From Kangiellaceae bacterium (lineage in GTDB: Bacteria > Pseudomonadota > Gammaproteobacteria > Enterobacterales > Kangiellaceae): DNA of 64,000 bases. Position 1 is the first letter of the stretch; the number at the start of each line of letters is the position of its first letter. A program made the position numbers and the translations under genes. The notes beneath the pieces were generated by a model that did no database searches, was not told where the DNA came from, and saw only the letters and a list, made by a program, of their open reading frames with translations. The stretch lies in contig JABXIQ010000006.1 of the NCBI GenBank assembly GCA_013373015.1, forward strand, positions 62,001 to 126,000, given 5' to 3'. Shown one piece after another: positions 1 through 3,262 of the stretch.

Positions 1-418
1 CTTTAGCTACTTGAAGAACTAGTCCATATGCACTTTCTTGTTTAATTTCTTTCTTTATCCATGCCCTATAATATTGATATTCATCAAAATGGATGAAATT
101 ATTTTTCAAGTTATCTTCATCTATATCCAACAACAAGTCCCTTTCATCAATAAATTTTATAAACAGCTGAAAACTAGATAAATAGGTATAAAGTGAAGAA
201 TCTGGCATACCTCTTGTTTTTTCAAGATTGAAAGAATCAGTCACAGCCTCAATGAATGGAATGCGCTCTTTTATAAGACTTTTCCATTTAGTATCGCAGT
301 CATTTTCCCGAAACCACCATCTTGCATCGCTTGAGGCGCCGCCTTTAATAAGAAATCTTCTTAAGTCTCCAGCTTTTCGATTATAACCTCTTATCTTTAA
401 ATGCTGTATCTCATCCAT
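1..418 (-). CDS. Partial protein of integrated element, possibly a second tyrosine recombinase
   Basis: An open minus-strand frame runs from ATG at 418 to the window edge, so about 139 N-terminal residues are visible and the C-terminus is missing. It starts 4 bases after the stop of the recombinase gene, so the two are probably co-transcribed. I do not recognise a family with certainty. The visible part is helical and charged. The stretch from about residue 75 on (LYTYLSSFQLFIKFIDERD onward) looks like the SAM-like core-binding domain of tyrosine recombinases, which would make this the second of a tandem recombinase set. That is inference, because no catalytic residues fall inside the window. 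Base composition is AT-rich (17 G+C in the 60 bases at 121-180), unlike the housekeeping genes to the right. Confidence 0.6.
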   Translation of the reverse strand, partial: MDEIQHLKIRGYNRKAGDLRRFLIKGGASSDARWWFRENDCDTKWKSLIKERIPFIEAVTDSFNLEKTRGMPDSSLYTYLSSFQLFIKFIDERDLLLDIDEDNLKNNFIHFDEYQYYRAWIKKEIKQESAYGLVLQVAK

Positions 419-422
419 AATT

Positions 423-1637
423 TCAACTAAAGTTTGGTCCTAGAAAGTACCTTATAAATGACTTATTAGCTTTCCTTGCTGTTTTGGAGTTCTGTAAAAA
501 TTTAATATACCTCCATGTTGTAGCTTCATTCTTGTGCATCAGCCAATCACGAACATTATTTATCGCATCATTATCACTGTGCTTCATGAATTCACGAGCC
601 AGCTCTGTACCACAAGTAGCTCTGGACTGATGAAACTTAAGGTCGTGAAACTGAGTATATCCGTCTCTAATTAATGTTCTTCTTAATTCACTCATAGCTG
701 TATTAATGCTCCCTTCACTATACGGCTGCCCATCTTTTGTAAGAAATAATAACGATTTATTATCTTTATTTGCTTTAGCCTGTCTTTTAAGACGGACTAT
801 ATTCGTTTCAGCATAATCAAGAATAAAATAATAGACTGGCTTCAAAAACCTGATGAAACCTCTCACATCATATTTAGTGTTAATTCCTGTCCCAGGGCCG
901 GCAGCAACAAGCATAATATTTGGATCAATTTTATCTGATATTGCTCTTTTTAGATTTTCAATCCTCAGCGTTCTGATAGAACCAATACGTGAGCCTGTAA
1001 AAAACCCAATTACGAACATTGCGTGTAAAACCGTATTACTCTCGCTTTTGTGTTCATTCAAATATGTTAAAAGAGTATCGCGGTCTTCGCCTGAAAGAGG
1101 TAAAAGCCCATCTTCAAGTTTCGAAATATTTGCTTTTCTATGTGAAATTCTCAGATCGGTTGTTGAAACTGTTAGTGTTCGCTGGAAGCCAGTTTTATTG
1201 AAGTATGTTACTGATACTTCCTGCTCTTCCCACATTTTTATTTGTTTATCTATATAACCACGCTTTTGAGCCCATTTATAAAAGTTAACGACTGCATTCA
1301 TCCTTCTAGAAGGAACTGCACTTGTTCCATTAGACGATCTAATGAGATGTCCTCTAAAGCGCTCTAAACAACGCTCGGCTTGCCTGATAGGAAAATGTAG
1401 CCATGTGATATTATTATCTTCCAACCAATCAGCATATGCTTTTAAGTCATATGCATTACTTCGTAATGTCGAGCTTTTACTTCTTTTTTCAGATAGATAG
1501 ATTAGAACTTCTATCCAAGGCTTACAATCAGACCAGAAAATCAAATAATTTGTTTTGGATTTTCTTGTATCATCCTTAACCCATTTACCACTAACGAATT
1601 GATACGGTTGCGCTTTATAACTTTGTATATATGCCAT
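423..1637 (-). CDS. Tyrosine site-specific recombinase (phage-type integrase)
   Basis: This 404-residue protein should cut and rejoin DNA through a tyrosine-linked intermediate, integrating or excising a mobile element. Residues about 50-130 form a helical core-binding domain. The C-terminal half carries the catalytic set: Arg217 in FFTGSRIGSIRTLR, His336 and Arg339 in HQSR, His368 in LMHKN, and the nucleophile Tyr377 in TTWRY. Nothing essential appears missing, so the enzyme is probably active. It is followed 4 bases later by a second gene of the same element and preceded, about 155 bases away, by the 3' end of a shortened yjbQ. Composition is AT-rich (19 G+C in 60 bases at 781-840). The element is unclassified, and its other end lies beyond the window. 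Confidence 0.9.
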   Translation of the reverse strand: MAYIQSYKAQPYQFVSGKWVKDDTRKSKTNYLIFWSDCKPWIEVLIYLSEKRSKSSTLRSNAYDLKAYADWLEDNNITWLHFPIRQAERCLERFRGHLIRSSNGTSAVPSRRMNAVVNFYKWAQKRGYIDKQIKMWEEQEVSVTYFNKTGFQRTLTVSTTDLRISHRKANISKLEDGLLPLSGEDRDTLLTYLNEHKSESNTVLHAMFVIGFFTGSRIGSIRTLRIENLKRAISDKIDPNIMLVAAGPGTGINTKYDVRGFIRFLKPVYYFILDYAETNIVRLKRQAKANKDNKSLLFLTKDGQPYSEGSINTAMSELRRTLIRDGYTQFHDLKFHQSRATCGTELAREFMKHSDNDAINNVRDWLMHKNEATTWRYIKFLQNSKTARKANKSFIRYFLGPNFS

Positions 1638-1748
1638 CGGTAAATCAGCATCCTTATATTAATTTTTGAAATCATCAACTTTAAGAAATACTAAAAATAG
1701 AAAAGAAAACTGCGTTCGTAAAGAAAAAAATGTAGGGATATCTAAGAA

Positions 1749-1803
1749 TGTCAGATTTGAAATTACTAATGTGTAGTTATGTCAGGTCATACACTAATGT
1801 GTA
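1749..1803. repeat. Imperfect direct repeat at the yjbQ/element junction (candidate att or recombinase-binding sites)
   Basis: The 11-base word ACTAATGTGTA occurs at 1765-1775 and again at 1793-1803, and TGTCAG precedes each copy (1749-1754 and 1780-1785). This makes two imperfect direct copies of about 25 bases. The right copy contains the yjbQ stop codon. The position between a tyrosine recombinase gene and a truncated target gene suggests an attachment core or arm sites. That function is inferred; the repeat itself is directly visible. Confidence 0.45.
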
Positions 1804-2159
1804 AAGTAAACCCCTTGCCAAGTCCCTAAAGCCAAACGCCCATCAACAATAGGGATACTCAAACTGGTTGCGGTCAAAGCGGCCTTAATATGCGCAGGCA
1901 TATCATCTGCACCCTCATAAATATGCGTATAAAGTGGATCATTTTCTGGGACTAAACGATTAAGCCAACGCTCTAGATCATGCTTGGCGCTAGGATCGGC
2001 GTTTTCCTGAATAATTAAACTACAAGAAGTATGACGTACAAACAAATGACAGATGCCGATATCAAGATTCACATTTTTAACGATTGACTCAACTTGACGG
2101 GTAAACTCATACAAGCCTTGGCCATTACTTGATATCAGAAGCGTTTCGGAATGACTCAT
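1794..2159 (-). CDS. yjbQ: YjbQ/UPF0047 family protein, C-terminally shortened
   Basis: A YjbQ-family protein (secondary thiamine-phosphate synthase type) of 121 residues. The family core is present: HTSCSL near residue 44, QENADPSAKHDLERW, and YEGADDMPAHIK. Full-length relatives are about 138 residues, and after the GTWQG motif they continue with a conserved EHR..GGSR..I-type ending. Here the chain stops five residues after GTWQG (VYFTH, then TAG), so the last beta-strand region is missing. The stop lies inside the repeat next to a recombinase gene, so loss of the 3' end by element integration is the likely cause. The ATG overlaps the alr stop by 4 bases (ATGA), indicating co-transcription with alr. 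Whether the shortened protein still works is unknown. Confidence 0.85.
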   Translation of the reverse strand: MSHSETLLISSNGQGLYEFTRQVESIVKNVNLDIGICHLFVRHTSCSLIIQENADPSAKHDLERWLNRLVPENDPLYTHIYEGADDMPAHIKAALTATSLSIPIVDGRLALGTWQGVYFTH

Positions 2160-3262
2160 GTTTGATCCTGTGTAGAGTCAATATATTCAAATTCCACTCT
2201 ACGCGTTACTCCACAGCATAGTGTATAGGGAATGGTATCCATAAAAGGTGCCACTTTTTCGGCAGGAAGTTCTTTCCCCCACAACACCACTCTATCGCCT
2301 ACTTGCTCTTGAGCATCGGCTCCTAAATCCACCGCCAACATATCCATTGATACTCGCCCAACTAGCGGTACTAGTCGACCATTAACCCATACTGGCGTAC
2401 CATTTTTCGCGTGACGCGGATAACCATCACCATAGCCAATCGCTACTAACCCTAAAATCGTATCCTGCTCGGCAAACCAATGGCGGCCATAACCCGTTGA
2501 TTCGCCAGCTTTTATTGCCTTTATGGTTAAAATTTGTGATTCCAGAGACATGACCGGGTGCAACCCATAATCTGCACCACAGCTATCAGACAGCGGCGAG
2601 CAACCGTACAGCAATAAGCCTGGACGCACCCAATCAAAATGGGCATTCTTATGCATTAAAATACCAGCCGAATTAGCCATCGATTTTTCTGCAATAAGAT
2701 GCTCTGTTGATTGCTCAAATCGCACAATTTGAATATCCGAAAAATCACACTCAGGCTCATCAGAGCTAGCAAAATGAGACATCACTTTTATCGGCTTATC
2801 AACACATTGAATTTGCTCTAACTGTTGTTCAACTTTTGCTAAATCTTCTGGAGCAAAACCAAGGCGATGCATTCCCGAATCAAGTTTTACCCAACAAGCA
2901 ATTTTTTTATCGGTTGAGAAATTTTTTGAGAATTTTTTAAGATCTTCTATTTGCGGCCAATGATGCAACACCATCTGCAAATCATGCTCAACAATAGCAT
3001 CAAGTTCTGAAGCATCAAAAAAACCTTCTAATAAAAGTATCGGTGTTTCAATGCCTGCTTTTCGGATGGTCAAGGCTTCTTTTAATGTTGCTACTGCAAA
3101 CATTTCAGCATCCTCAAGGGCGCTAGCGATTTCAACCAAACCATGCCCATAAGCATTAGCTTTTACTACAGCCATAACTTTACTGTCGCTGGCTATAGAT
3201 TTAATAGTTTTCAGGTTATGGCGCAGTGCCGAAAGGTCAATGATTGCCTTGGTTGAGCGCAT
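2156..3262 (-). CDS. alr: Alanine racemase
   Basis: PLP-dependent interconversion of L- and D-alanine in the cytoplasm, supplying D-Ala for peptidoglycan. The protein has 368 residues, normal for the family. The PLP lysine is Lys34 in VVKANAYGHG, and the second catalytic base is the first Tyr of GYGDGYPR in the C-terminal domain. The gene lies 25 bases after dnaB and overlaps yjbQ by 4 bases, giving a dnaB-alr-yjbQ run. The dnaB-alr pair is a common arrangement in gammaproteobacteria. Start ATG at 3262 with the family-typical MRSTKAIIDLSALRHN opening. Confidence 0.97.
   Translation of the reverse strand: MRSTKAIIDLSALRHNLKTIKSIASDSKVMAVVKANAYGHGLVEIASALEDAEMFAVATLKEALTIRKAGIETPILLLEGFFDASELDAIVEHDLQMVLHHWPQIEDLKKFSKNFSTDKKIACWVKLDSGMHRLGFAPEDLAKVEQQLEQIQCVDKPIKVMSHFASSDEPECDFSDIQIVRFEQSTEHLIAEKSMANSAGILMHKNAHFDWVRPGLLLYGCSPLSDSCGADYGLHPVMSLESQILTIKAIKAGESTGYGRHWFAEQDTILGLVAIGYGDGYPRHAKNGTPVWVNGRLVPLVGRVSMDMLAVDLGADAQEQVGDRVVLWGKELPAEKVAPFMDTIPYTLCCGVTRRVEFEYIDSTQDQT

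Follow-up and report, generated by a model that had tools for sequence, protein, structure and literature searches.

The draft genome G000 of a Kangiellaceae bacterium carries, inserted in yjbQ, an element that we assign, with a probability of roughly 0.9, to a known class of mobile DNA, the strand-biased integrative elements (SEs), which received their name and definition in 2022 and 2023 (PMC9345347, PMC10214605). The element measures 34,115 bp (C43:29,689-63,803) and is cut through by the edge of the window, by which we mean the whole stretch of 64,000 nucleotides under analysis (bases 62,001-126,000 of contig C43); the 62 kb of contig further left were also analysed. Its right, intA-side end occupies window positions 1-1803, as delimited by a restored yjbQ reading frame and by a sharp drop in identity to a related genome beyond that point, and its remainder lies to the left of the window, as far as C43:29,689, on the basis of the same restored frame. 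A second element, with different cargo, sits in the same yjbQ codon of Kangiella sp. HZ709 (G012).

The four core genes, intA-tfp-intB-srap, lie on one strand at one end of the element, with a 4-bp gap or overlaps between them. The first, intA (window 423-1637, minus strand), encodes a tyrosine recombinase of 404 aa (Pfam Phage_integrase, 34.3 bits) with the conserved residues R217, H336, R339, H368, and Y377, to which we assigned the catalytic roles; the first-pass annotation was thus right to call it a complete tyrosine recombinase gene. The second, tightly linked gene reported there is also present and its linkage is indeed tight, but only part of it falls in the window: this is tfp (C43:60,736-62,418, minus strand; 560 aa in all), of which window positions 2-418 hold the first 139 codons. 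To its left follows intB, whose 663-aa product has a phage-integrase C-terminal domain, and to the left of intB lies srap (131 aa). In BLASTP comparisons with SE-PaeBT2436, for which the Pseudomonas putida plasmid L069, recognised by two protein identifiers given in PMC10214605, served as the reference, IntA is 36%, Tfp 28%, and IntB 28% identical over most of their length, and Srap 39% identical over 90 residues. The recombinase, seen earlier with a single linked gene, belongs to a set of four genes by which the element can be assigned to a known class. Across five elements the full catalytic set R, H, R, (H,) Y is invariant in both IntA and IntB, whereas Tfp is without the first Arg and the first His and keeps R388, H408, and Y417 (the roles again being our assignment), which suggests that the published label of Tfp as a protein without a catalytic motif would fit only in part. 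Between G000 and G012 the four core genes have dN/dS values of 0.09-0.27 and are thus under purifying selection. Searches of the PDB with IntA and IntB returned nothing useful.

The extent of the element follows from its target gene. The truncated yjbQ (window 1794-2159, minus strand) encodes 121 aa, with its last codons and stop (1794-1803) consisting of element DNA; the product ends five residues past GTWQG, and its match to TIGR00149 breaks off at position 115 of the 132 in the profile. The missing tail was located by reading frames at the far end of the DNA common to G000 and G012, on the minus strand and 34.1 kb to the left of the truncated gene, where it reads WEHRHGNHNRQVVVHISS followed by a stop in G000 and WEHRHSNHNRNIIVTITE followed by a stop in G012. 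Excision in silico of C43:29,689-63,803 yields a 137-aa YjbQ in frame, and so does excision of 1,134,245-1,159,646 from G012, whose element accordingly measures 25,402 bp. This agrees with the suggestion of the first-pass annotation that an integrative element had used the 3' part of yjbQ. Its remark on AT-rich composition also holds, although the difference is modest (37.0% G+C in the element against 40.3% and 41.2% in the C43 flanks). In blastn comparisons the G000 and G012 elements are alike from C43:55,223 to the element end and again in a 269-bp piece at C43:29,661-29,929, with no match longer than 60 bp between C43:29,929 and C43:55,223.

The right end is formed by terminal motif C (window 1792-1803, CACTAATGTGTA on the plus strand), the last base of which is position 1803, the very end coordinate given in the first-pass annotation, and the far end holds its inverted counterpart, motif C' (C43:29,695-29,706, TACACGTTAGTG). 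Read inward from the intA end, motif C is TACACATTAGTG and agrees with C' at 11 of 12 positions, with 6 bp between the two when the ends are joined; the inverted match is limited to these 12 bp, the positions beyond them differing, against 13-19 bp in known SEs. An 11/12 match is reached by 15 of the 4,000,000 position pairs within 1 kb of both ends, and one of those 15 is the pair derived independently from the yjbQ frame. As in the att sites of SEs (PMC10214605), the halves of attB are found in attL and attR, the joined ends are imperfect inverted repeats, and the spacer is 6 bp long. Because TACACRTTAGTG alone is non-diagnostic (41 genomes gave 13 matches to it and 27 to its reversed control), we count only paired and placed motifs. 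The joined-end pattern is absent from the G000 and G012 assemblies; given that the circular junction (attS) of SEs has been put at about 0.001 per chromosome (PMC9345347), this is to be expected, but it lends no support. At 28 bp inward from the intA end is a further copy resembling motif C (TACTAATGTGTA, window 1764-1775); it is present in G012 as well and could be an accessory recombinase site.

Adjoining motif C are the central 6 bp of attB (window 1804-1809; AAGTAA on the plus strand, TTACTT in the sense of yjbQ). Insertion of an SE, as described, places the central 6 bp of attB beside C, on the intA side, and the 6 bp carried by the circle beside C' (PMC10214605, PMC9345347); the latter, foreign 6 bp are expected to derive from the left flank of the donor site. 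The two Kangiella elements show this same placement, with TTACTT as the host 6 bp on the intA side in G000 and TTACCT in G012; we regard the intA-side 6 bp as host DNA because only that assignment restores GTWQGVYLWEHR, the other giving GTWQGVCRWEHR. The foreign 6 bp on the far side are TTGCCG in both genomes.

An uncut yjbQ is the rule in the genus. The tail of the gene was read in 28 of 30 loci, the other two (L036 and L038, from other families) being without a match to the motif, and all 18 other congener loci have it intact, as GTWQG-x-Y-L-x-EHR and 14 further residues; only G000 and G012 have a cut gene. The same two are the only ones of 20 congeners with intA and tfp (E<=0.001). Two of the 18 genomes negative for intA are incomplete (55% and 86%), which makes the absence of intA weaker there, but their yjbQ is whole. 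The truncation noticed in the first-pass annotation is thus real, and relatives without the recombinase have the full-length gene. The loss of 19 residues would be expected to inactivate YjbQ, of which G000 has one copy only. For the near sister of G012, G010, the empty site itself is available: the G012 flanks (to 1,134,243 and from 1,159,647) align to its bases 9,788 and 9,790. The borders in G000 are seen against four more distant relatives, with alignments ending at them in four of four cases (left border 29,612 or 29,687, right border 63,813).

The agreement in codon and in foreign 6 bp between G000 and G012 would also fit a single old insertion that both Kangiella lineages inherited or that passed between them by homologous recombination. 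This is very unlikely. In a tree of the two adjacent genes Alr and YjbQ (alr, at window 2156-3262 on the minus strand, being part of the host flank), G012 pairs with the empty G010 (100/99) and G000 groups with five empty species (96/95), while none of 200 bootstrap trees has a topology with a single origin. All 16 full 500-bp bins of the shared core show 92.0-96.2% identity (a partial bin at its start shows 90%), whereas host DNA beyond the element is 62-75% identical, and the fall comes right at the element end and not further out. The detached tails are also unlike each other, that of G012 matching the intact G010 tail exactly from WEHR onward. On the evidence of this host tree, the distribution needs two separate insertions at one yjbQ codon.

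Two other classes of element deserve consideration besides SEs. An ordinary integrative element of the IME or ICE type, in which one integrase excises and re-integrates the DNA and leaves direct att repeats, would account for site-specific insertion by a tyrosine recombinase in the 3' part of a housekeeping gene. It would not be expected to have four linked recombination genes homologous to those of an SE or to leave its target unrestored, and relaxase or conjugation families were matched by none of the 30 element proteins (a subset of the open reading frames) scanned with Pfam. The second att site in the form of a direct repeat, as foreseen in the first-pass annotation, is likewise missing, the end 6 bp differing (TTACTT against TTGCCG) as they do in SEs; we consider an IME or ICE a most improbable identity for the element. 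The related four-gene elements known as GInts (genomic islands with three integrases, ginABCD) come closer in overall layout, since they too have three recombinase-type genes and a small fourth one at one end, variable cargo in a size range that includes ours, and, in their tripartite structure, a short AT-rich far end (PMC5385486). However, the gene whose product lacks a full catalytic set comes third in GInts (GinC) and second here, as tfp does in SEs, and GInts are flanked by imperfect direct repeats of 10-11 nt (PMC5385486). The clear BLASTP matches to SE proteins weigh further against a GInt, as SE and GInt proteins are described as mostly without mutual matches (PMC10214605); the chance that the element belongs among them seems to us every bit as slim as for an IME or ICE.

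Among described systems, SE-PaeBT2436 (PMC10214605) has the same gene order on one strand and homologues of all four proteins (28-39% identity), but it is distant from the Kangiella element and differs in host and cargo. SE-6283 and SE-6945 of Vibrio alfacsensis, to which we liken our element by description, also have four core genes, a 6-bp spacer, host 6 bp on the intA side, and few chosen targets (PMC9345347, PMC10214605); the targets reported for them are bcp, insJ, yjjNt, and the yaaA promoter rather than yjbQ, and SE-6283 carries a copy of bcp, whereas yjbQ is single in G000. Tn554 is similar in its 6-bp footprint, its one ordinary and one large recombinase, and its small TnpC (PMC10214605). 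It differs in having TnpA, TnpB, and TnpC only, in Firmicute hosts, with no counterpart of the Tfp homologue of the Kangiella element. Gamma-Mobile-Trio islands are cargo-rich and have a recombinase trio at one end in Gammaproteobacteria; no NCBIfam model named for them was among the matches of our proteins or of those of two other SE-type loci. Neither yjbQ nor Kangiella appears in the main texts of PMC10214605 and PMC5385486. In a literature search that lay outside the supplementary lists of SE hosts and targets, nothing was found that links yjbQ to a tyrosine recombinase or that joins the term 'strand-biased circularizing' with Kangiella, in keeping with the comment in the first-pass annotation that no well-described element is known to use this site; we have not seen yjbQ as a target or Kangiella as a host genus reported for SEs in the literature searched.

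The cargo is partly common to the two elements. Both have, beside srap, a 377-aa gene on the opposite strand and an operon that encodes an HNH protein, a 214-aa protein, and a small nucleotidyltransferase (C43:55,313-56,967 in G000). The HNH protein is similar to SAVED-domain endonuclease effectors and to the candidate system PDC-M68A (PADLOC), and a Vibrio alginolyticus plasmid (L073:7304-8953) has, in the same order, a 232-codon hypothetical gene, a relative of the 214-aa protein (63%), and a nucleotidyltransferase; our guess is that the operon might be a defence cassette. The nucleotidyltransferase gene (C43:55,313-55,633 against G012) has a dN/dS near 1 (0.042/0.042) beside constrained neighbours, a weak signal that comes from few changes. 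Specific to G000 are a LysE-type exporter, DUF2306 proteins, an ArsR-type regulator beside an AHSA1 protein, beta-lactamase-family hydrolases, and a GST, and specific to G012, as judged by eye, are apparent metal-efflux RND and CDF transporter genes. A hairpin-like motif, AAGCGTCTGCTTTGT..CAGAC, occurs at C43:29,902, 54,324, and 55,240, that is, near both cargo borders and once inside; it may mark cargo exchange or may be a common intergenic hairpin. An integron-like cargo, with this motif read as attC, seems doubtful, the genes running both ways and no array being found.

As to how the element would move, the operon adjoining motif C encodes two tyrosine recombinases with full catalytic sets (IntA and IntB), the recombinase-fold protein Tfp, and the small helper Srap, and by analogy with published work on other SEs these four proteins would join the two ends on one strand. 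Replication would then yield a circle with the 6-bp spacer between the ends (attS), and the circle would insert into attB, so as to leave the host 6 bp beside C and the circle-borne spacer beside C'. From its SE class we infer that the element moves, that it does so with a strand bias, and that it leaves no empty donor site behind; on the same footing it would be active now and would take a copy-out route.

The far-side TTGCCG presents a puzzle for this scheme. It is found at this place in yjbQ in none of 24 uncut genes (18 congeners and 6 other relatives), and so the published rule, taken with the common TTGCCG, implies that both elements last came from a site other than yjbQ that holds TTGCCG. 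Synonymous divergence between G000 and G012 (dS 0.23 for intA, 0.28 for tfp, 0.24 for intB, and 0.22 for srap) indicates that the elements parted a good while ago, and yet TTGCCG agrees. No candidate donor emerged from the sequences searched: viral contigs held neither a relative of IntA nor the joined-end pattern, the sole IntA relative in genome contigs was G012 itself, and all 157 matching plasmid records were less than 60% identical. An order-wide draw of 394 genomes gave a next IntA of 42% identity, in G215, and a class-wide draw gave IntA proteins 39-41% identical in 2 of 369 genomes besides G000 (E<=1e-40). The G215 gene (L057, G215:C27) directly follows a reading frame that resembles a cut DNA methylase, a sign that relatives further removed apparently have different targets. 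One tentative and on balance doubtful explanation is that TTGCCG is a fixed part of the element in this SE subfamily and is not rewritten from the left flank of the donor at each move; if true, this would explain the shared spacer in two separate insertions of diverged elements, and the strand bias of circle formation would have to be the reverse of the one in SE-6283 and SE-6945. The more conservative alternative is that a single kind of donor site with TTGCCG, itself unseen and perhaps carried by a plasmid, gave rise to both elements.

The assignment to the SEs adds to that class a well-delimited pair of elements in Kangiella, in a target, yjbQ, that the literature searched had not linked to a tyrosine recombinase. 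As a near sister of one host has the site empty, the pair lends itself to a clean natural test of how SEs choose their targets and of whether the 6-bp rule holds, and the identical 6 bp in two insertions would either confirm or bend the current one-strand model of circle formation.
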